DNA from: Gardnerella massiliensis
GTDB lineage: Bacteria; Actinomycetota; Actinomycetes; Actinomycetales; Bifidobacteriaceae
Direction of reading: 5' to 3'
Assembly: GCF_003408845.1 (NCBI RefSeq)
Contig: NZ_LRTV01000001.1
Coordinates: 148,969 to 212,968, forward strand
Length of the DNA: 64,000 bases
Position numbers and translations under genes: made by a program. The stretch's first letter is position 1. Each line of letters starts with the position of its first letter. The notes below the pieces were generated by a model. That model had not been told where the DNA came from and did no database searches. It saw nothing but the letters and a program-made list of their open reading frames with translations. Positions 27,199 to 38,979 of the stretch are shown here, in pieces.

Positions 27199-27282
27199 GC
27201 CTCTGTGGCGGAATTGGCATACGCATCAGACTTAAAATCTGACGCCCTTACGGGCTTGTGGGTCCGAGTCCCACCGGAGGCA
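27199..27282 (+). tRNA. tRNA-Leu (anticodon TAA)
   Basis: The acceptor arm GCCTCTG pairs with CGGAGGC, followed by discriminator A. The anticodon stem TCAGA/TCTGA holds loop CTTAAAA, giving anticodon TAA. A long variable arm (GCCCTTACGGGC) marks a class II tRNA, and the T-loop is TCCGAGTC. CCA is not encoded. Confidence 0.95.
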
Positions 27283-27290
27283 CAAACAAA

Positions 27291-27326
27291 ACGCTGCACA
27301 GCCGTTTGGCTGTGTGGCGCTTTTTT
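27291..27326 (+). terminator. Terminator after tRNA-Leu
   Basis: GCTGCACAGCC-GTTT-GGCTGTGTGGC stem followed by six Ts. It isolates the tRNA from the CRISPR-Cas region. Confidence 0.85.
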
Positions 27327-27341
27327 CTAACTCTGGCTTTA

Positions 27342-27369
27342 TTGCTTTAATATTCTGGGTTAATATAAT
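27342..27369 (+). promoter_or_regulatory. Strong-looking promoter driving the mini CRISPR array
   Basis: TTGCTT (27342-27347) and a perfect TATAAT (27364-27369) are 16 bases apart. The predicted start point is near 27376, about six bases before the first repeat of the mini array. Bases 27353-27361, between the two boxes, read TTCTGGGTT and match the start of the mini-array pseudo-spacer in eight of nine places. Confidence 0.7.
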
Positions 27370-27381
27370 ATGAGTTTGTTT

Positions 27382-27456
27382 GTTTTCCCGCATACGCGGG
27401 GGTGATCCTTCTGTGTTTCGCGATATATAGTTTTTCCCGCATATGCGGGGTGTGAC
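27382..27456 (+). CRISPR. Two-repeat mini array with a 21-nt pseudo-spacer upstream of cas3
   Basis: The first repeat (27382-27408) matches the main-array repeat except at its 5' end. The second (27430-27456) keeps the TTTCCCGCAT-GCGGGG hairpin but has a changed 3' end (GTGTGAC for GTGATCC). Between them lie only 21 bases (27409-27429), against 33 for every intact spacer of the main array. It has the same orientation as the cas genes, its own promoter, and a strong hairpin just after it. This arrangement fits a crRNA-like regulatory RNA or a decayed old array; see findings. Confidence 0.75.
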
Positions 27457-27457
27457 G

Positions 27458-27495
27458 GTTGAGCTTCGAATTGCATTGTGCATTTGAAGCTCAAC
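27458..27495 (+). terminator. Strong hairpin after the mini array
   Basis: GTTGAGCTTC pairs perfectly with GAAGCTCAAC, with an inner TGCA-TTG-TGCA stem. It is followed by TAGTTTTAG rather than a clean T-run, so it may be a leaky terminator, a processing site or an RNA 3' end. Confidence 0.55.
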
Positions 27496-27536
27496 TAGTT
27501 TTAGTAAATAAATATGCAACACAATCTTCCTTAAAA

Positions 27537-27599: not shown

Positions 27600-30455
27600 A
27601 TGAGTTGTAATCACGTTGTTAATTCTGCATTATGGGGTAAAAAGAGAGAAGCTAATGGAGTAATGCAATGGCTTCCTCTTGCTCAACATCTTGAGGATAC
27701 TAGAAATGTTATTGGTCAGCTGTGGGAGCATTGGCTTAGTGGTGGTCAGCGAAGATTGATTGAATCCTCATTAAGTAAACGAGTTGATGCAAAAAAATTG
27801 TCTCAATTTTTAGGCTGTGTTCATGATATTGGTAAAGCTACTCCTGTTTTTCAGTTTCGTAAATCGTCTTCAAATTCAAAAGATTTAGATATTGCGTTAA
27901 AAAATAAGTTAGCTAACGTAGGTTTTACAAATATCGATGATTTTATTCTTAAGGCAACAGATTGCTCAAGTAGTCATCACACTATAACTGGTCAATTTAT
28001 TCTTTCTAATGCTGGAGTTCCTGAAGGGATTTGTGCAATTGTTGGAGCTCATCATGGTAAGCCTTTAGATAATGATTCTGTTTGTAGAAGTAATAAGTCT
28101 AAATATCCTGACCATTACTATCAAAGTGAAACTGAAAGTGAGAATAGTAAATTATGGAAAAAATTGCAGAACGATATTTTGGTTTGGGCTTTAGAAAGAA
28201 ATGATTTTTCTAATGTAGATGATCTTCCAGAAATAAATGAGCCAGCACAAGTTTTGTTGTGTGGACTAGTAATTATGGCTGATTGGATTGCTAGTAATGA
28301 ACACTATTTTCCGCTTATTCCAATAGAGAAAGATTTGATTGGAAAGCAGGAAGAAAGATATAAAAAAGGTTGGGAAAAGTGGTTACAACATGGTTCTAAA
28401 GACGTATGGGAATCATTAAATTGCTATAGCGATGTTTCAGAACTATACAAACATCGCTTTGATTTCTTGCCGAATAGTATTCAGACATCGTTGTACGATG
28501 TCATTTCTCATTGCAAAGAGCCTGGAATTTTTATTCTTGAATCTGCAATGGGATCTGGGAAAACAGAAGCTTCTTTGATTGCTGCTGAGCAATTAGCAAA
28601 TCTAACCGGAAGAAGCGGAGTATTCTTTGGACTTCCTACTCAAGCAACTTCTAACGGAATGTTTAGACGAGTTGAGGATTGGCTTAAAAGTGTGAATAGT
28701 GATTCCCAGGGCGAAATTGGTTTACGTTTAGTCCATGGTAAAGCTGAGCTGAATGCAGATTATGCCCATTTGCCTCATGGAATGCAAAATATGAATGATG
28801 GTTCTGAGAGTAGATCTAGTAATAATGATGTAAATAACAATGGAGTAATACTTAATGATTGGTTTACTGGGCGAAAAACCGCAATGTTGGATGACTTTGT
28901 GGTCGGTACAGTAGATCAATTTTTGTTAGCTTCGTTAAAACAAAAGCATCTTATGCTTCGTCATTTGGGTTTAAGTAAAAAAGTTGTGATTATTGACGAA
29001 GTGCACGCTTATGACGCTTATATGAATAAGTATCTTGAAGAATCTCTTATTTGGATGGCGGCATACGGTGTTCCTGTTGTGTTACTTTCTGCTACTTTAC
29101 CTGCCAAGCGTAGAGAAGAACTTATAAAATCTTATATGTTGCGTGGGTTGGGCTTTAAATGGAGTGAATGCGATAAGTCTAATGTTGATTTTGAAACAAA
29201 TAATTATCCTTTAGTTACGTACAGTGATAAAAACTGTGTAAAGCAAAAATTTATTGAAAATGATGCTAGTGATAATAAATCTGTTTCTGTGAGAAAAATA
29301 ACAGATGATAACTTACATGAATCACTTGTTAATGAGCTTAAATCTTTGCTGAATAATGGTGGTATTGCTGGAATTATAGTAAACACCGTTAAAAGAGCTC
29401 AAGAAATTTATAATGCGTGCGTTGATGAATTTAGTGATGACGAAGTTATAGTTATTCATTCGCAATTTATTGCTACAGATAGAGTTAGAAAAGAACAACA
29501 GATTTGCAATATGATTGGCAAGAATGCTCATAGACCTGCTCGTGCAATAATTATTGGTACGCAAGTATTAGAACAGTCACTTGATATTGATTTTGATGTT
29601 TTGTTTACTGATCTTGCTCCTATAGATTTATTACTTCAACGTGCAGGCAGATTACATAGGCATACGATAGAACACCCAAATTCTCTTAAAGAACCAATTT
29701 TATATGTGTTGGGTACTAGTGAAATCTACAAATTTGATAAAGGCTCTGAGTCTATTTACAGTAAATATTTACTTATGAGAACTCAATACTATTTGCCGGA
29801 TGTTATAAACATGCCTCAAGATATTTCTCGATTAGTGCAAATAGTTTATGGTGATAATCCTTTAGAGTTACAGGAAGATTTGAAAGATGCGTATGCTGCT
29901 GCAAAAAGAGAATATGATTCAGACAGAAATAACAATGAAAGTGATGCTGAAACATATAGAATTGAAAATCCAAAAACAGAAATCGGTAAAAAATCTATTG
30001 TTGGCTTGTTGACGAATTCAATTACAAATGAATCTGATGAATTTGCATGCGCTCAAGTTCGTAATAGCGGTGAATCTATAGAAGTTATTGCTGTGAAAAA
30101 AGTTGGTTCTGGTTATGGAACTTTCCATGATTGTGAAGATATTTCACAAAATATTGATGATGTGGAAGTTGCAATGAAACTTGCTCAAGAAACAGTAGGG
30201 TTGCCGTGGATATTTACATTAAATAGCAATCGTGTTGATGAAACAATTGCAGAATTGGAAAGAATACGAAAACAAAAGCAATTCAAAAATTGGGATGATC
30301 AGCCTTGGTTGCGAGGTTCTTTGATGCTTCTATTCGATGAAAATAATATTTGTGAATTATCGAAATACAGAGTTACGTATTCTGAAAAAAGTGGTATTGT
30401 ATGTATTAAGAGTTCGGAAGAAGATAGAAAGGAATCACAAGGTGAGCAGATTTAA
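27600..30455 (+). CDS. cas3: Cas3 helicase-nuclease, type I-E
   Basis: A 951-residue interference nuclease recruited by Cascade to unwind and degrade target DNA. The HD nuclease domain comes first: CVHDIGKATPVFQF at ~72 and GAHHG near 155 carry metal-binding residues. The helicase follows: Walker A MGSGKTEASL at ~317, DEVHAYD at ~465, SATLP near 500, and motif VI LLQRAGRLHRH near 680. A C-terminal domain ends the protein. All catalytic residues appear intact. It is the first gene of the cas operon and overlaps the cas8e start by 14 bases. Confidence 0.95.
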   Translation: MSCNHVVNSALWGKKREANGVMQWLPLAQHLEDTRNVIGQLWEHWLSGGQRRLIESSLSKRVDAKKLSQFLGCVHDIGKATPVFQFRKSSSNSKDLDIALKNKLANVGFTNIDDFILKATDCSSSHHTITGQFILSNAGVPEGICAIVGAHHGKPLDNDSVCRSNKSKYPDHYYQSETESENSKLWKKLQNDILVWALERNDFSNVDDLPEINEPAQVLLCGLVIMADWIASNEHYFPLIPIEKDLIGKQEERYKKGWEKWLQHGSKDVWESLNCYSDVSELYKHRFDFLPNSIQTSLYDVISHCKEPGIFILESAMGSGKTEASLIAAEQLANLTGRSGVFFGLPTQATSNGMFRRVEDWLKSVNSDSQGEIGLRLVHGKAELNADYAHLPHGMQNMNDGSESRSSNNDVNNNGVILNDWFTGRKTAMLDDFVVGTVDQFLLASLKQKHLMLRHLGLSKKVVIIDEVHAYDAYMNKYLEESLIWMAAYGVPVVLLSATLPAKRREELIKSYMLRGLGFKWSECDKSNVDFETNNYPLVTYSDKNCVKQKFIENDASDNKSVSVRKITDDNLHESLVNELKSLLNNGGIAGIIVNTVKRAQEIYNACVDEFSDDEVIVIHSQFIATDRVRKEQQICNMIGKNAHRPARAIIIGTQVLEQSLDIDFDVLFTDLAPIDLLLQRAGRLHRHTIEHPNSLKEPILYVLGTSEIYKFDKGSESIYSKYLLMRTQYYLPDVINMPQDISRLVQIVYGDNPLELQEDLKDAYAAAKREYDSDRNNNESDAETYRIENPKTEIGKKSIVGLLTNSITNESDEFACAQVRNSGESIEVIAVKKVGSGYGTFHDCEDISQNIDDVEVAMKLAQETVGLPWIFTLNSNRVDETIAELERIRKQKQFKNWDDQPWLRGSLMLLFDENNICELSKYRVTYSEKSGIVCIKSSEEDRKESQGEQI

Positions 30456-32112
30456 TTTATTAGATGAGCCTTGGATTTCCGTCATTGTAGACGAAAAAGG
30501 CCACAATAAACTCGTATCAATTACAGACGTGTTTAAGCATGCGTCTGAATATAAAGCTCTTGCTGGCGATATGAAAACTCAAGATTTTGCATTGCTTCGT
30601 ATTCTGTTAGCTGTGCTTCATACTGTTTTTTCTAGGTATGATATTCAGGGAAATTCTCGTGAATTTGATTCAGATGAAGACGATAAAGAGGATTTCAATA
30701 AAGAAACAATGAATATTTGGCGCGAAGTTTTGAATTCAAAAGAGTTTCCAGACGCAGTTTTCAAATATTTAGAACAATGGCATGATCGTTTCTACCTTTT
30801 TGATGACAAATATCCTTTCTTTCAGGCTAGTATATTAGATATTGAGAGCAAAAAGCTTAGTTGTCAAAATCCTACTGAATTATTGGGCAAAAATATTAAT
30901 CGCTTAATTTCTGAAAGTAACAATAAAATAGCTGTATTTTCTCCAAAAGATAATGTTGATAATAACAAATCGTCACTTACGCAGCCGCAATTAGCAAGAT
31001 GGATTATTACGTTACAGTCATACGCTGGATTGGCGGATAAGACCTTTTTTGGTACGGGAAAATATAAAGCTTCTAAAGGATGGCTTTTTGACCTTGGTGG
31101 CATTTACGTAGAAGGCGAAAACCTATTTGAAACTCTTATGCTCAACTGCGTGCTTGTTGGTGAAATGCAATCTCCTGCGAAGAGACAAAAACCGTGTTGG
31201 GAATATTCAGGAGCAGAAAATATTGAAAATTCGTTTTATGAAACATTTATTGACAATATTTCTCAGCTTTACACTCGATGGAGTAGAGCAATATATATAA
31301 ATCCTGATATTAGTATTGACAAGCCGATATCGGTTTCTATAGTGAAACTTCCTGATATTAATCATAAAAATGCTTTTATTGAGCCAATGACAGTATGGAA
31401 GTACAACAAGGAACGGGAAAACAAGGACAAATACACTCCAAGGAAGCATGAAGTAGAAGAATCTATGTGGAGATCATTTGGGTTACTTACATTGCAAGAA
31501 TCAGATGATGGGATCCTAAAAAATCACAAACCGGGAATTATGGAATGGTTAAATAAAATTAGTAAAGATATTGAAGGTTCTTCTATTTCATTACAGGCTG
31601 TAAGTATGAAAGATGATGGCAATGCTACATCTTGGGTTCCTACAGATGAAATATGCGATACTTTGCATATTGATGAAGTTGTAGTAACTGATAATTCTGA
31701 CAATGGATGGGTGGGTAGAATTAACAATGAAGTGGAGCGTACAAGATCTGCCATAGGATTTATTTACAGGCAATTTCTTCTAGACATATGTGAAATACGT
31801 AATAGAAATAAAGATGATGCAACTAAATATGCTGATAAGCGTATTAGTCATGTTTATTTCTTAGTTGATCAACCGTTTAGAGAATGGTTAGCAAATATTA
31901 AACCAAAAGATTCAATGAATGAACGATGTACTCAATGGAGAAATACTTTGTATAACATACTCATAAATGAGGCAGAAGTCATGTTAAAAAATGCTACGTT
32001 ACGTGATTTTACAGGTCTTGTTGGTGAAAAAAGTAAAAAAAATCCTGCAAAAAATATAGTTATAGCTTACAACATTTTTATTAGTCGATTAAAAAAATTA
32101 TCAGGAAAATAA
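30442..32112 (+). CDS. cas8e: Cas8e (CasA/Cse1), large subunit of Cascade
   Basis: A 556-residue large subunit that reads the PAM and recruits Cas3. The N-terminus FNLLDEPWISV is the Cse1 signature, and later regions (AGLADKTFFGTGKYKASKGWLFDLGGIYVEG) match the family. The GTG start at 30442 is chosen because AGAAAGG precedes it; the frame upstream to 30337 lies inside cas3. The length is close to other actinobacterial Cse1 proteins. Confidence 0.93.
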   Translation: MSRFNLLDEPWISVIVDEKGHNKLVSITDVFKHASEYKALAGDMKTQDFALLRILLAVLHTVFSRYDIQGNSREFDSDEDDKEDFNKETMNIWREVLNSKEFPDAVFKYLEQWHDRFYLFDDKYPFFQASILDIESKKLSCQNPTELLGKNINRLISESNNKIAVFSPKDNVDNNKSSLTQPQLARWIITLQSYAGLADKTFFGTGKYKASKGWLFDLGGIYVEGENLFETLMLNCVLVGEMQSPAKRQKPCWEYSGAENIENSFYETFIDNISQLYTRWSRAIYINPDISIDKPISVSIVKLPDINHKNAFIEPMTVWKYNKERENKDKYTPRKHEVEESMWRSFGLLTLQESDDGILKNHKPGIMEWLNKISKDIEGSSISLQAVSMKDDGNATSWVPTDEICDTLHIDEVVVTDNSDNGWVGRINNEVERTRSAIGFIYRQFLLDICEIRNRNKDDATKYADKRISHVYFLVDQPFREWLANIKPKDSMNERCTQWRNTLYNILINEAEVMLKNATLRDFTGLVGEKSKKNPAKNIVIAYNIFISRLKKLSGK

Positions 32113-32134: not shown

Positions 32135-32749
32135 ATGACTGAAAATCAAAGCAAAACTGTTGAAGTATCTAATGCTGTTAGCAAAATTATCAAGCAATTT
32201 ATAGAAATTGCAGATGCTTCGTCAAATAGAGCTATGCTTGCTCAACTTCGCCACACAATTGGTAAGCCATTAAGTCAGTCTGTAGAAATATGGCCATGGA
32301 TATTAAGCAATGTTCCGGTAAGCTTCATCAATAAATATGGTGAAGTTAGCTACCAATTGCGAGCTGTTATAAACACTTTGCAAATATACGCATTGTACGA
32401 GCAAGGTGTTAGAGAAAAATCAAGTTATAAAGATTTAAATAAATCTGAAGATTCAGAAAATGAAAAATCTTATAACAATATGGGAACAGCTTTAAGAGCA
32501 CTAAGAAGTGACGAAGGCGTACGTGTGGCGATGGATAGACGCTTTAGTGTTATGATTACTGCAAGCGATTATGAGAGTTTTTACTACTATCTTCGTCAAC
32601 TAGTTCGACTACTAAAAAGCAGAACAAAAGAAAATCAACAAGCGATTGATTATTCTAAACTAGCGCGCGATTTGTATTTGCTTCAGTTTGAAGATTCAGA
32701 AAAAATAAGACTTTCCTGGGCACAAGAATATTATCGTTTAAGCAAGTAG
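32135..32749 (+). CDS. cse2: Cse2 (CasB), small subunit of Cascade
   Basis: A 204-residue, mostly helical small subunit present twice in I-E Cascade, where it contacts non-target DNA. It has the conserved RRFSVMITASDYESFYYYLRQLVRLLK segment at ~130-160. A Lys/Ser/Glu insertion at ~100-115 is low complexity. GAAAGGAGG precedes the start. A 94-base AT-rich gap follows, the only sizeable gap within the Cascade genes. Confidence 0.9.
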   Translation: MTENQSKTVEVSNAVSKIIKQFIEIADASSNRAMLAQLRHTIGKPLSQSVEIWPWILSNVPVSFINKYGEVSYQLRAVINTLQIYALYEQGVREKSSYKDLNKSEDSENEKSYNNMGTALRALRSDEGVRVAMDRRFSVMITASDYESFYYYLRQLVRLLKSRTKENQQAIDYSKLARDLYLLQFEDSEKIRLSWAQEYYRLSK

Positions 32750-32843
32750 CAATAACTTTTTAGCAACATCACATATTTTAAAAATTACATATTTCAAAAA
32801 CAACGTTATTAAACAATCAACTAAAATTTAGAAAGGCAAAACA

Positions 32844-33932
32844 ATGAACGCTCATTTATTCTTAGATATTCAAGCAATACAAACTGTTCCACCATGCAAC
32901 ATTAATCGTGATGATGCAGGAAGCCCGAAAACTGCTCAATATGGTGGTGTAACTAGAGCTAGAGTAAGCTCTCAATGTTGGAAGCATTCAATGCGTGAAT
33001 ATTTCAAAGAGCACAGCGGAGATTCCAATGTTGGAATACGAAGTAAAAACATTGTTAAGTACGTTGCAGATAAAATTATTGCATTAAAACCAGAATTATC
33101 TGAACAAGAAGCATTAGATTTAGCAAAAAAAACGTTAAATAATGCTGGTATTAAAACTAAAACAGATAAGGGTAAAATAACTCCTGTAGTAAATGTTCTA
33201 TTTTTCTTAGGTGAAAATCAAGCGAATTCTCTAGCGCAAGCAGCAGTCAACAATATTAAGGACAAGAAGCAGCTGGAAGAAATTTTGAAAGATAATCCAC
33301 CTATTGATATTGCGCTATTCGGTCGCATGCTTGCAGACAATCGATCTCTTAATGAGGATGCTTCTTCTCAAGTTGCTCACGCAATTTCCACTCACGCTGT
33401 TCGTGCTGAATTTGATTACTATACTGCTGTTGATGACTTATCTGCGGATGATAATGCTGGAGCTGGGATGCTTGGAACAATAGAATATAATTCTTCAACA
33501 CTGTATCGTTATGCAAATGTTGCAATACATGAATTTAGCCATCAGTTGAGCGGTAACAAAGAATCTACAATTAATGCTCTTAGACTTTTTATTGAAGCTT
33601 TCGCTAACGCTATGCCTACTGGAAAAGCAAATACTTTTGCGAATCAAACTTTGCCGCAAATGCTGGTGGTAACTTTAAGAGATGACAGACCAGTGAATTT
33701 AGTGAGCGCATTTGAAGATCCAGTAAAAGCAAAAGACGGATATGTTTCAAAGTCTATAGAAAAGCTATCTCAAGAATACGAGAAAGTTCAAAAATTTGTT
33801 CATAAGCCACTAGCGTCATTCTATGTGACAATGGATTCTTCAAATGAGAATCTTAAATTAGGTACAGAAGAGCAAAATATGCAGCAATTATTGGATGATT
33901 TTTCTTCTAAATTATCTGAATTGCTTCAGTGA
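32844..33932 (+). CDS. cas7e: Cas7e (CasC), Cascade backbone subunit
   Basis: A 362-residue RAMP-fold subunit, six of which line the crRNA. The N-terminus LFLDIQAIQTVPPCNINRDDAGSPKTAQYGGVTRARVSSQCWKHSMR is the Cas7e hallmark, and YRYANVAIHEF and ANAMPTGKANTFANQTLPQMLVV match the later conserved parts. AGAAAGG precedes the start. It is intact. Confidence 0.95.
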   Translation: MNAHLFLDIQAIQTVPPCNINRDDAGSPKTAQYGGVTRARVSSQCWKHSMREYFKEHSGDSNVGIRSKNIVKYVADKIIALKPELSEQEALDLAKKTLNNAGIKTKTDKGKITPVVNVLFFLGENQANSLAQAAVNNIKDKKQLEEILKDNPPIDIALFGRMLADNRSLNEDASSQVAHAISTHAVRAEFDYYTAVDDLSADDNAGAGMLGTIEYNSSTLYRYANVAIHEFSHQLSGNKESTINALRLFIEAFANAMPTGKANTFANQTLPQMLVVTLRDDRPVNLVSAFEDPVKAKDGYVSKSIEKLSQEYEKVQKFVHKPLASFYVTMDSSNENLKLGTEEQNMQQLLDDFSSKLSELLQ

Positions 33933-33990
33933 ATCTCTTAATAGATAACACTTATTGGTTGATATTTAGTGTTTAACAGTTAGGAAGCTT

Positions 33991-34875
33991 ATGAAAAGTT
34001 TATTACTGAAGTTTTCTGGACCGTTGCAATCATGGGGTACGGATTCGCATTTTGAGACTCGTCGCACAGACTACTATCCATCTAAAAGTGCGGTAGTAGG
34101 TATGATTGCTGCAGCTTTTGGGTATAGAAGAAGTGCAGATTGTGATGAAGAGATTGCAAAGCTTAATGATTTGGATTTTGCAGTACGAATAGATCAGCAA
34201 GGAAATTTGCTTAGAGATTATCATATTGCTGCAAAATATAAGCTTAACGGTGACTTTGAAAAAAATTACGTTACAAATCGTTACTATCTAGAAGATGCCA
34301 TATTTCTAGTTGCAATAGGATCCGATAATGAGCAACTTATTTACAGTATTAACGATGCGTTGCGCTCGCCATATTTTCAATCTAGTTTAGGCAGAAGATC
34401 ATTGCCTCCTACTGCTGACTTTATTCTAGGAGTAGAAGATTGTGGAGTAATTCAGGCTCTATTAACGCATGAGTGGCTTGCAAATGAGTGGGGTAGAAGA
34501 CGAGTTAAAGTTTCTGTATTATCGAGAGGCTTGGAATCTACGGAAGAATCAAGTAAATCACTTAATTCTGGCTTTGTGCCTTTATATGCTGATGCTGATT
34601 TGATAGATAAAGCAGCAGAAGAATTAAAAAAAGAAGATATTGGTACTTATAGAATCCAGTCGTCGGTTCGTAAGTTACGCAAGGATTACGTTAATTCTTT
34701 CTCAAATAAAGAAAGGAAATTCGGGTTCCGGTACGAATCGAAAATTGAGATACCCATTGAACGAATTTGTCGCAATATGCCAAATTTGCAAAATGTTCGA
34801 TCAGATAATAGTTATTTAAAAGTTCATAGAACTTTTAATGTTGAACACGATGCATTTTCTGGGATGGAGGCGTAG
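33991..34875 (+). CDS. cas5e: Cas5e (CasD), Cascade subunit at the crRNA 5' handle
   Basis: A 294-residue protein that caps the 5' handle of the crRNA. The N-terminal LLLKFSGPLQSWGTDSHFETRRTDYYPSKSAVVGMIAAAFGYRR is the Cas5 signature, and a later SLGRRSLPPTADF segment is also typical. It is longer than the E. coli protein (about 224 residues) by a C-terminal Lys/Arg-rich section. The stop codon is immediately followed by the cas6e ATG. Confidence 0.93.
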   Translation: MKSLLLKFSGPLQSWGTDSHFETRRTDYYPSKSAVVGMIAAAFGYRRSADCDEEIAKLNDLDFAVRIDQQGNLLRDYHIAAKYKLNGDFEKNYVTNRYYLEDAIFLVAIGSDNEQLIYSINDALRSPYFQSSLGRRSLPPTADFILGVEDCGVIQALLTHEWLANEWGRRRVKVSVLSRGLESTEESSKSLNSGFVPLYADADLIDKAAEELKKEDIGTYRIQSSVRKLRKDYVNSFSNKERKFGFRYESKIEIPIERICRNMPNLQNVRSDNSYLKVHRTFNVEHDAFSGMEA

Positions 34876-35520
34876 ATGACTTACTTAAGTAGGGTTGAAA
34901 TTGACTTTCAAAAGTATAAATCGCAAATGGATCTTAAATCGGTGGGTGCTTTCCATAATTGGGTTGAGCAAAGTTTTCCAGATGAATTTGTAGATCATGA
35001 GCGAAGTCGTAAGTTGTGGCGTGTGGACGTTTTACAAGGGAAACAGTATTTGCTTGTAGTAAGCGACAATAAGCCAGATTTGCAACGTTTAGAGATGTAT
35101 GGGGTCGCAGGGACTGCAGTAACAAAGAGTTACGACAAGTTTCTAGAGCAGTTAAAAGATGGTATGAGAATGCAATTTAAAGTGACACTTAATCCCGTTG
35201 TTGCTATTTCTGATACTCCTGAGGCTCGTTCTACTCGTGGCAGAATTGTTCCACATATTACTTACAGTCAGCAAATGAATTTCTTGCTTAAACGTGCGCA
35301 AAAATTAGGATTTGTGCTACGGGACGACGAATTTACTATCGTTGAACGTGGGTACAGTTTGTTTACCAAATCAAAAAAGCCTATTCGATTAAGTAGAGTT
35401 ACGTATCAGGGTGTGTTAACTATTAACGATGCTGATACCATGCGCAAAACGTTAATTGAAGGAATCGGCAAGAAAAAAGCGTATGGATTTGGCATGATGA
35501 CACTTATTCCTATTGGTTGA
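34876..35520 (+). CDS. cas6e: Cas6e (CasE), crRNA-processing endonuclease
   Basis: A 214-residue RAMP endoribonuclease that cuts the pre-crRNA at the base of the repeat hairpin. It begins TYLSRVEIDF; the conserved glycine-rich tail IGKKKAYGFGMMTLIP lies at ~200-213. His28 (FHNWVEQSF) is placed as expected for the catalytic His. It starts directly after cas5e with no gap. Confidence 0.92.
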   Translation: MTYLSRVEIDFQKYKSQMDLKSVGAFHNWVEQSFPDEFVDHERSRKLWRVDVLQGKQYLLVVSDNKPDLQRLEMYGVAGTAVTKSYDKFLEQLKDGMRMQFKVTLNPVVAISDTPEARSTRGRIVPHITYSQQMNFLLKRAQKLGFVLRDDEFTIVERGYSLFTKSKKPIRLSRVTYQGVLTINDADTMRKTLIEGIGKKKAYGFGMMTLIPIG

Positions 35521-35544
35521 TCAGTTGTAAAACCTATATGTTGA

Positions 35545-36507
<963 letters not shown>

Positions 36508-36508
36508 T

Positions 36509-37621
36509 ATGCCGCTAACTGTAATAACAATGACAAATTGTCCTTCATCTTTGAGGGGAGATTTAACTAAATGGATGCAAGAAATCGCAACAGGTGTTTA
36601 TGTTGGCAATTTTAATAGTCGCATTCGTGAAGAATTGTGGAAGCGTATCGAAAATACTGTTGGCAGTGGATCTGTAACAATGAGTTTCACTGCACAAAAT
36701 GAAATAGGCTACGATTTCAAAACGATACATTCACATCGTGAAGTGTGTTATTTTGATGGATTACCTTTAGTGCGTGTCCCGTCAAGTGATACCTTGGAAA
36801 GTGACTTACAGTACGGTTTCAGCGATGCTGCACATTTTCATAATGCTAAAAAGTTCGCAAATATCAGGCATAAAAGGAACTTTGAAATTTCTATTGATAG
36901 TGCTGAAAATGAGTTCAAAGCTGAAAATGTAAGTTCTTCAATTTGTAATACTATTGCGCAAACCAAGAAAACTATCACCAACAATGATGAAATGGTGTGT
37001 GACAGTTATTGCAGTTATTGGAAGGAATATGTTGGTAAAACAAGTAAAAATTTTGTTGTTATAGATTTTGAAACCACTGGATTAGATAGCAGGATTCATA
37101 AAATTATTGAAATGGGAGCAGTGAAATTTGTAGATGGAGAAATTGAAGAATTTCAAACTCTCGTAAATATTTATAATAATGACGATAATTTTATTGGAGG
37201 CTGTTGCCAAAGTTCGGATAATAATAGTTTATTGCCTAATGAAATTATTAAACTGACTGGTATTACACAAGATATGCTTGAATCTGACGGCGTAAGTATA
37301 TCTGTGGCAATAATAAAATTTATTGAATTTATTGGTAAACTGCCGATAGTGGGATACAATGTCCCGTTTGATTTGGCGTTCTTAAATGCTGCAATATTGT
37401 CGAGCGGTAAAGAATCTGGTATCTCTTTTTCAGGGAATAAGGTTATTGATATTTCGCGTTTTATAAAAAAAGAAAGAATGTTTTTGCAAAATTATAAATT
37501 GGAAACAGTGTTGCGTGAATATGATGTGGCTGAATCAGTGCCACATAGAGCATTGACTGATGCTAGATTAACGGCGCGGCTTGTTTTTAAAGTAAAAGGA
37601 TTGCTAAAGTTTCTTTCATAA
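36509..37621 (+). CDS. cas2: Cas2e fused to a DnaQ-like (DEDDh) 3'-5' exonuclease
   Basis: A 370-residue fusion. Residues 1-~95 are Cas2e (PLTVITMTNCPSSLRGDLTKWM, GVYVGNFNSRIREELW, and the SFTAQNEIGYDFKT strand). A low-complexity linker (~100-180) leads to an exonuclease domain with all DEDDh residues: D186 and E188 in VIDFETTGL, D288 in YNVPFDLAFLNA, H346 and D351 in PHRALTDARLTARL. Cas2-DnaQ fusions are known in some type I-E systems, where the exonuclease trims prespacers to length. The start ATG at 36509 follows GAGGT, and the stop of cas1 lies one base upstream. The frame upstream to 36494 lies inside cas1 and is not used. Confidence 0.93.
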   Translation: MPLTVITMTNCPSSLRGDLTKWMQEIATGVYVGNFNSRIREELWKRIENTVGSGSVTMSFTAQNEIGYDFKTIHSHREVCYFDGLPLVRVPSSDTLESDLQYGFSDAAHFHNAKKFANIRHKRNFEISIDSAENEFKAENVSSSICNTIAQTKKTITNNDEMVCDSYCSYWKEYVGKTSKNFVVIDFETTGLDSRIHKIIEMGAVKFVDGEIEEFQTLVNIYNNDDNFIGGCCQSSDNNSLLPNEIIKLTGITQDMLESDGVSISVAIIKFIEFIGKLPIVGYNVPFDLAFLNAAILSSGKESGISFSGNKVIDISRFIKKERMFLQNYKLETVLREYDVAESVPHRALTDARLTARLVFKVKGLLKFLS

Positions 37622-37728: not shown

Positions 37729-38234
37729 GTCTTTCCCGCATACGCGGGGGTGATCCCATTGACGCTGAAATTGCAAACCGTGGAAACGCGTCTTTCCCGC
37801 ATACGCGGGGGTGATCCTACCGGAGTCTGGTATGTAAATGTAAATGATTTGTCTTTCCCGTATACGCGGGGGTGATCCCTAAGCATCATCACCACCACGC
37901 ATACGTCGAGGGTCTTTCCCGCATACGCGGGGGTGATCCCTAATCTTCCTTGCTGGTTTGTGGCGGCTGGCAGTCTTTCCCGCATACGCGGGGGTGATCC
38001 TGAAAAAGTACGTTGCAATGGCTATAGGCGTACGTCTTTCCCGCATACGCGGGGGTGATCCTAAAATGAGTCAAGTTTATGCAAGAGAAAGAAAGTCTTT
38101 CCCGCATACGCGGGGGTGATCCCGTATTCGCACCTATGTGTTTTTGCCATAAGGTGTCTTTCCCGCATACGCGGGGGTGATCCTACGGCGACGGTTGCGA
38201 TTCCCGACGCACTTGCGTCTTTCCCGCATACGCG

Positions 38235-38374
38235 TGGGCGCGACGACCTGCCTGAGCGCTTAAAGCGTAGCGCGCGAAGGCAATTTGGAGCGCTGAGCTT
38301 GCTTAGGTTGAAAGCACGGTGTGCTTTCAACGCAAGCGAGGGCTGCCTTCGTCTCGATTGACGAAGGCAGCAAG
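38235..38374 (+). repeat. Structured ~140-nt element, copy A, splitting a CRISPR repeat
   Basis: It begins TGGGCGCGACGACCTGCC directly after the first 18 bases of the repeat at 38217. It contains an outer arm CCTGAGC/GCTTAGG, an 11-bp stem GTTGAAAGCAC/GTGCTTTCAAC, and a terminal 12-bp stem GCTGCCTTCGTC/GACGAAGGCAGC (38342-38371). ATACGC occurs on both flanks, like a short target duplication. There is no coding capacity. It is about 97% identical to the copy at 38819. Confidence 0.85.
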
Positions 38375-38495
38375 ATTATACGCATGGCGGGTGGTGATTT
38401 ACTTCGGTGTATCGCGTGATAAAGTGGAAAAGCCGTGACGCAAGGGCGAGTTATCCTTTTTGTCCTCTTGGCGAAGACGCGCCACTGCGCTTTAT
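38375..38495 (+). other. Decayed array segment after element A
   Basis: About 120 bases in which repeat-like pieces can be traced. TATACGCATGGCGGGTGGTGAT looks like the missing right half of the split repeat, and a stretch ending GGGCGAGTTATCC (38429-38456) looks like a worn repeat. The intervals between them are roughly spacer-sized (about 30-39 bases). No gene is seen. Confidence 0.5.
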
Positions 38496-38818
38496 ATCTT
38501 TCCTGCATACGCGGGGGTGATCCTGGCAGTAAACATCACGCAGAAAGACAAAACGAGTCTTTCCCGCATACGCGGGGGTGATCCCTGCGGGTTTGTTACT
38601 TCTGACCCTATCAGACTGTCTTTCCCGCATACGCGGGGGTGATCCCAGTCATCCGTGGTTAGTTTCGGCTTAAATTTAGTCTTTCCCGCATACGCGGGGG
38701 TGATCCCGCAATAAAGCAAAATCCGATAACAAAAAGTCTGTCTTTCCCGCATACGCGGGGGTGATCCTGCGACTTGGAGTGTTATTCAGCTGGATTATGC
38801 GTCTTTCCCGCATACGCG

Positions 38819-38959
38819 TGGGCGCGACGACCTGCCTGAGCGCTTAAAGCGTAGCGCGCGAAGACAATTTGGAGCGCTGAGCTTGCTCAGGGTTGAAAGC
38901 ACGGTGTGCTTTCAACGCAAGCGAAGGCTGCCTTCGTCTCGATTGACGAAGGCAGCAAG
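38819..38959 (+). repeat. Structured ~140-nt element, copy B, splitting a CRISPR repeat
   Basis: This is the same element as at 38235, entering the repeat at 38801 after the identical 18 bases. It differs by about four bases. Its outer arm is CCTGAGC/GCTCAGG, a full Watson-Crick match where copy A has a G-T pair. On its right flank a worn TAAGCGGGGGTAATCC completes the repeat (ending 38979). Confidence 0.85.
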
Positions 38960-38979
38960 CTTGTAAGCGGGGGTAATCC

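Follow-up and report, generated by a model that had tools for sequence, protein, structure and literature searches.

Cas-regulating RNAs (CreR) have been described for CRISPR-Cas systems of types I-B, I-E and V-A in the review PMC13131331. In a type I-B system, according to the relevant part of PMC8501985, the minimal seed of CreA, defined by mutation, consists of nucleotides 1-5 and 7-11 next to the PAM, positions 6 and 12 being free. The part of PMC10989794 that deals with type I-B spacer length reports that spacers of 21-24 bp repress well and one of 20 bp far less, and that none of 20-24 bp primed adaptation. For CreR and CRISPR together with Gardnerella or Bifidobacterium, nothing was found in the open-licence full-text literature. 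Here we analysed a stretch of 64,000 nucleotides of Gardnerella massiliensis DNA, which we call the window. Judging from its sequence, the region 27376-27496 is very likely the gene of a type I-E CreR-type RNA that would guide Cascade to repress the cse1-cas2 operon.

A CreR is expected in a locus with a complete type I-E effector and Cas6e, and both are encoded here. Pfam matches identify, all on the plus strand, cas3 (27600-30455; Cas3_HD and Cas3_C), cse1 (cas8e; 30442-32112), which is the first gene past the target discussed below, and then cse2, cas7, cas5, cas6e, cas1 and cas2 (32135-37621). The matches to Cas3, Cse1, Cse2, CT1975-like Cas7, Cas5, CRISPR_assoc, Cas1 and Cas2 make the type I-E set complete, those to Cse1, Cse2, Cas7, Cas5 and CRISPR_assoc being over the cut-off; we take the CRISPR_assoc match to be Cas6e. 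The reading frames of cas3 and cse1 overlap. The gene order is that reported in the relevant part of PMC3559282. Cas2 (36494-37621) carries a C-terminal RNase_T (exonuclease) domain. The main CRISPR array (37729-38828, plus strand) comprises two blocks, both of which end in the same degenerate repeat and the same trailer of ~170 bp (38214-38383 and 38798-38968; 95-98% identical), and the array end looks as if duplicated in tandem.

The original prediction, made from the letters of this DNA, placed a two-repeat mini-CRISPR ahead of cas3 and in the same direction, and its anatomy holds: with cas3 starting at 27600 on the plus strand, a promoter-like sequence, a good first repeat, a short pseudo-spacer, a worn second repeat and a strong hairpin stand where they were proposed, all on the plus strand. 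The putative creR promoter, TTGCTT-16-TATAAT, occupies 27342-27369. Its TATAAT lies in the same place, at an identical distance from repeat 1, in all five Gardnerella genomes that carry the unit, and the -35 box is unconserved; a promoter consensus scan was uninformative because it found 15 sites where 15.0 were expected. In the window genome, a tRNA-Leu(TAA) gene and a terminator-like hairpin (27199-27339) abut this promoter; genomes G031, G095 and G069 have unrelated sequence there, and therefore the creR promoter region appears to have been partly replaced with the TATAAT retained.

The first repeat, psiR1 (27381-27408), is a near-perfect copy of the array repeat, the last 25 of its 28 bases being identical to it. 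Its stem is kept in 5/5 genomes, and it is presumably the source of the 8-nt handle GUGAUCC+U, so that the predicted 5' end of the creR RNA is GUGAUCCU. The spacer-like guide psiS (27409-27429) is 21 nt long, as against the main array, whose units recur every 61 bases (28+33) inside each of its two blocks. Nucleotides 2-12 of psiS (27410-27420) form the seed region. The degenerate second repeat, psiR2 (27430-27457), has lost the 3' part of the repeat and retains the hairpin through a compensatory change, one stem pair being C-G in the window genome and T-A in the other four. The strong hairpin that follows (27457-27496; z -6.0), with a compensatory change from A-T to G-C in G031, is a probable creR terminator; folding of 27456-27500 gives -23.5 kcal/mol, which none of 200 shuffles equalled. 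The terminator scan contained no entry for this hairpin, whose T tract is weak, and in the Rfam search only tRNA-Leu reached the gathering score, three sub-threshold matches being ignored. Altogether, all five genomes have standard pairs at each of the 23 helix positions listed for the two repeats and the terminator, with two-sided changes in psiR2 and the terminator. Thus 27376-27496 has what characterizes a crRNA-like gene, namely a spacer analogue and degenerate local repeats outside the array, whereas the 33-nt spacers and conserved repeats of a functional defence array are absent from it, psiS having 21 nt and psiR2 having lost its 3' end.

With one genome per species compared, Cas3 is matched at E <= 1e-60 in 29 of the 112 genomes of the genus, and the mini-CRISPR is present in 5/112, exactly those five whose Cas3 is 89-100% identical to that of the window. 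These five Gardnerella genomes represent one lineage. The seed half of the guide reads TTCT(G/A)TGTTTCG in all five (TCT(G/A)TGTTTCG over nucleotides 2-12), and the distal half differs between the window genome and the other four. A degenerate psiR2 and a short spacer are what a functionless, decaying two-repeat remnant of an old array would also display. Such a remnant would hardly keep its seed in 5/5 genomes, change its stems in a compensatory manner and agree with a target, and the same design with different guides occurs in other lineages; we regard decay without function as very improbable.

What the guide might recognize depends on the PAM and on where pairing starts. For Gardnerella, the relevant part of PMC3559282 reports AA directly upstream of protospacers and a C or T as the first base of 97.5% of spacers; because of this near-constancy we count the first spacer base with the repeat, as the last base of the handle. 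The original prediction had the RNA repress its own promoter, or that of cas3, through TTCTGGGTT at 27353-27361, and this stretch does match the start of the pseudo-spacer at 8 of 9 bases. The mismatch was put at position 6 for a 28-nt repeat and at 5 with the first spacer base joined to the repeat; we adopt the latter count, and the mismatch thus falls at seed position 5, which should pair. Furthermore, the stretch is preceded by TA and not AA, its match is shorter than that of the cse1 site described below, and sites matching the pseudo-spacer start at 8/9 or better number 22 on both strands of the window. The proposed co-variation between guide and promoter across Gardnerella was checked, and it was found that the start of the pseudo-spacer does not vary apart from a single G/A difference, whereas the promoter stretch changes: in the other four species the best match within the 52 nt preceding repeat 1 is 5-6/9 (in G044, N stands at 18 of these positions and in much of the sequence upstream of the creR promoter), which leaves this target in one species of five. 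We consider own-promoter targeting through TTCTGGGTT the least probable of all the readings weighed here.

A search of the five genomes for PAM plus seed with <=2 mismatches gave, among the matches listed, one-mismatch sites at a shared place near the end of cas3 in G044, G031 and G069. The pattern with position 6 free, AANTCTRTNTTTCG, was picked after these sites were known, and the rule later held in other lineages. It occurs once per genome in all five, at a constant place in cas3, which in the window is 30361-30374 on the minus strand; the reversed pattern has 4 matches in the five genomes summed. The CreR target (protospacer) thus spans 30352-30372 on the minus strand within the 3' end of cas3, with the seed at 30361-30371 and the AA PAM at 30373-30374 (TT on the plus strand, where it forms the start of a would-be -35 box). 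Aligned, the target AA-C-TCTGT-A-TTTCG faces the guide T-TCTGT-G-TTTCG: seed positions 1-5 and 7-11 are paired at 10/10, positions 6 and 12 are unpaired and pairing stops after 11, i.e., the limited seed complementarity beside cas genes and next to a PAM that is typical of CreR. The site lies 2.9 kb downstream of the mini-CRISPR and 69 bp before the cse1 start. In the window locus an equal score was obtained with 7 shuffled guides and with 9 random 11-mers, out of 2000 each; the best scores of the 13 array spacers there are 6-9 of 10. Two other candidates were set aside. A weak minus-strand match upstream of cas3, GATTGTGTTGCAT, which lies ~115 nt past the psiS start and has an AA PAM, is mismatched at seed 1-2 in G000, G031, G069 and G044 and is also altered in G095; a 13-base match to the start of a composite guide elsewhere in G031 and G069 is preceded by CG.

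The uniqueness of this site bears on two further readings. The anatomy of the unit is identical to that of CreA as presented in the relevant part of PMC8501985, and the RNA might accordingly be the antitoxin of a CreTA-type module or a regulator of another gene. In CreTA the target is the promoter of an adjacent gene for a toxin RNA or protein, whereas here each of the five genomes has a single AA-PAM site that pairs over the full 1-5/7-11 seed, and this lies within cas3 with cse1 as the next gene; we hold this reading to be unlikely. The RNA could also be an ordinary defence guide kept against one common phage, since the 21-mer of G031 and G095 has a single exact match in IMG/VR, in a terminase-like gene. 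That match is preceded by GG, not AA, the window genome's form of the guide has no IMG/VR match, and the seed is conserved with a variable distal half, all of which makes a defence role as improbable as decay. The IMG/VR match is at L103:12956-12976, in a gene that by eye resembles a phage terminase large subunit; perhaps it marks an old origin of the guide, or it arose by chance.

In 5/5 genomes the variable base of the guide is matched in the target (three G, two A), and the G/A difference in the target is silent in cas3 (TAC/TAT). The same 3/2 split of genomes is seen in 27 of 2841 cas3 columns and 20 of 947 third positions; among the 30 third positions of Tyr codons only one has it, namely the variable base of the target. 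Because this difference sets apart two sister genomes, G069 and G044, which are closer to each other than any others of the five (95% identity), the covariation is counted as a single event, G069/G044 versus the rest. Taken by itself, the 14-nt target window is unexceptional, 39% of the 14-nt windows of cas3 being as conserved.

Further evidence comes from other type I-E loci of the genus. The survey covered 35 cas3 loci from 32 genomes, including all 29 with a Cas3 match; 3/35 loci (G107, G061 and G017) were dropped for want of a cse1 match and 32 were analysed. A guide-target pair was defined by a handle matching [A/G]TGATCC at 6 or 7 of 7 positions, a 21-nt guide after it and a 10/10 target with an AA PAM, the Gardnerella PAM being carried over to the other genomes as an assumption. 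By this definition pairs are present in 14 of the 32 loci, the five Gardnerella loci included, and in none of the other 18. Where a 7/7 handle is accompanied by a second hairpin, 9 of 18 candidates have a target (five Gardnerella, G007, G068, G105 and G087) against 0.010 expected from shuffled guides, and the remaining 9 of the 18 lack one. The figures are 4 of 89 (0.040 expected) for 6/7 handles with the hairpin, 1 of 55 (0.030) for 7/7 handles without it and 0 of 947 (0.630) for 6/7 handles without it.

The pairs have three layouts. The RNA gene stands before cas3 and the target before cse1 in the five Gardnerella genomes, G105 and G068, in the last of which the RNA gene points away; in G087, G047a and G020 the RNA gene is flanked by cas3 and cse1, and the target again precedes cse1; and in G007, G049, G074 and G041b the RNA gene is upstream of cas3 and the target downstream of the RNA gene, still before cas3 (in G041b the pair precedes the cas3 match by 1.3-1.4 kb). 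Of the 14 pairs, 12 have a mismatch at position 6, and those of G087 and G047a are matched there. The spacer length given by the repeat finder is 21 nt in the window genome, its relatives, G007, G068 and G041b, and 22 in G049. CreR-like units with other guides, which adjoin cas3 or sit between cas3 and cse1 and have targets before cas3 or cse1, were found in other genomes of the genus (L053, L064, L057, L059, L067, L071, L075, L081, L063 and L054); G036 (L054), with a 9/10 target, is under the 10/10 cut and outside the 14. Thus a single design is common to guides whose sequences are unrelated.

Several further matches were not counted. Those of a looser list with 5/7 handles were read as background; 10/10 matches in L053 (a second site), L058 and L060 pair at positions 6 and 12 too, and the ones in L053 and L060, unlike that in L058, follow array repeats; additional unit pairs from the finder (L054+, L056, L062 and L064) are within arrays or look spurious. 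A phylum sample of 17 loci besides our own, scanned with looser handles and any PAM ending in A or G, gave several matches, most of them array repeats or non-AA; the AA match in L093 belongs to a candidate inside cas3 and was read as background. In two more distant members of the phylum, L096 (G318) and L098 (G316), CreR-like units with 10/10 AA-PAM targets near cas3 were observed, which are candidates for further cases.

How would Cascade bound at the end of cas3 act? Promoter occlusion, with the CreR target covering a cse1 promoter, is in our view the probable answer. In ten loci the cse1-side target is 65-108 bp before cse1. In G105, G047a and G020, where it lies by the cas3-cse1 gap, the -35 box of the best predicted promoter is exactly on the PAM, its score being reached by 0.5%, 3% and 0/200 of shuffles, respectively, and in G087 the -35 box starts 4 nt after the PAM start (1% of shuffles). 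Among the targets before cas3, those of G007 and G049 overlap good promoter-like sites (0/200 and 2%). No promoter coincides with the PAM in G068 (23.5% of shuffles), and the targets of G041b and G074 have no good promoter overlap (53.5% and 41%). For the window, the possible cse1 promoter TTACGT-16-TATTGT (30373-30400, plus strand), with TGG before the -10 box, is weak and is proposed on the strength of orthology and of the arrangement seen in other lineages: it overlaps the PAM, is outside the top two predicted promoters, and the consensus scan had none there. A promoter of this spacing that starts on the PAM is the best prediction in G031, G095 and G069 and the second best in G044, with best scores within background (19.5-53.5% of shuffles); for Gardnerella overall, the best score is reached by 12.5-53.5% of shuffles. 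These near-background scores, the position of the target within cas3 coding sequence and the overlap of cas3 and cse1 would equally suit Cascade acting, with the same RNA and target, as a roadblock to readthrough from cas3 into cse1. The cse1 promoter being putative, this alternative keeps some weight, but the promoters that coincide with targets in G105, G047a and G020, and those before cas3 in G007 and G049 (G068, G041b and G074 having none), make it rather less likely than covering of a promoter.

The course of regulation can be outlined as follows. The creR RNA would be transcribed from its own promoter and cut at psiR1 by Cas6e, giving the handle and the 21-nt guide, probably with psiR2 and the hairpin at the 3' end. 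Cascade loaded with it would bind the minus strand at 30352-30374 through the AA PAM and 10 seed pairs (1-5 and 7-11). This pairing should be too short for Cas3 cleavage and still suffice to impede RNA polymerase at cse1 or immediately upstream of it, and Cascade would in this way repress its own operon, cse1-cse2-cas7-cas5-cas6e-cas1-cas2. By analogy with the described CreR mechanism, array crRNAs or anti-CRISPRs that disable Cascade might bring relief. That creR is expressed, that Cascade binds and represses and that the target is a promoter we infer from sequence comparison. Nevertheless, since the guide matches a stretch before the Cascade genes in five species, Cascade very probably limits its own production. 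Conservation, a seed target with an adjoining PAM within the cas operon, the match of guide and target at the variable base and recurrence in other type I-E loci therefore lend strong support to the core of the original prediction, an autoregulatory RNA resembling a crRNA through which Cascade is directed against its own locus; only the promoter named as its target has to be given up.

In type I-E Cascade, position 6 of the guide is flipped out, and the difference between 33 and 21 nt, 12 nt, corresponds to two Cas7 segments. We tentatively propose, as a conjecture that may well prove wrong, that the type I-E CreRs of Bifidobacteriaceae are a split throttle: their guides of 21 nt, shorter than those used in defence by the length of two Cas7 segments, would place Cascade on a PAM that coincides with or lies close to the -35 box of an internal promoter of cse1, concealed within cas3 or directly behind it, Cascade and adaptation genes would be lowered with cas3 left on, and the RNA gene and its target would co-evolve via synonymous codons.

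The analysis replaces a hunch formed by eye with an exactly defined guide-target pair, open to testing, in a bacterium of the human vagina, and it shows that further type I-E loci of the genus have the same design with guides of unrelated sequence. It would account for the retention of a two-repeat relic in front of cas3 in Gardnerella, and it provides a search rule for such regulators elsewhere: a handle, ~21 nt of guide, an AA PAM and a seed of 1-5/7-11.

Three kinds of known regulators can be compared with this RNA. The scaRNA or long-form tracrRNA of type II systems, in the relevant part of PMC8730458, is likewise a CRISPR-derived RNA that represses transcription through short complementarity, but it belongs to Cas9 systems and has another RNA architecture. 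CreA of CreTA shares the psiR1-psiS-psiR2 order, the degenerate repeats, pairing at 1-5 and 7-11 with 6 and 12 free and a PAM-adjacent target (PMC8501985, in the part dealing with CreA); the Gardnerella unit differs in that no toxin gene was seen with it and its target is in the cas operon. Closest is CreR, which, as outlined in the relevant parts of the reviews PMC13131331, PMC12737573 and PMC12948488, is also a mini-CRISPR beside the cas operon with limited complementarity to a target in the cas locus and no toxin gene. Unlike it, the Gardnerella RNA has its target 2.9 kb away from its own gene, within the coding sequence at the 3' end of cas3 and in front of cse1, and therefore the Cascade genes could be repressed and cas3 spared. 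CreR is already a known kind of RNA, and the target within the coding sequence of cas3 is the unusual part.
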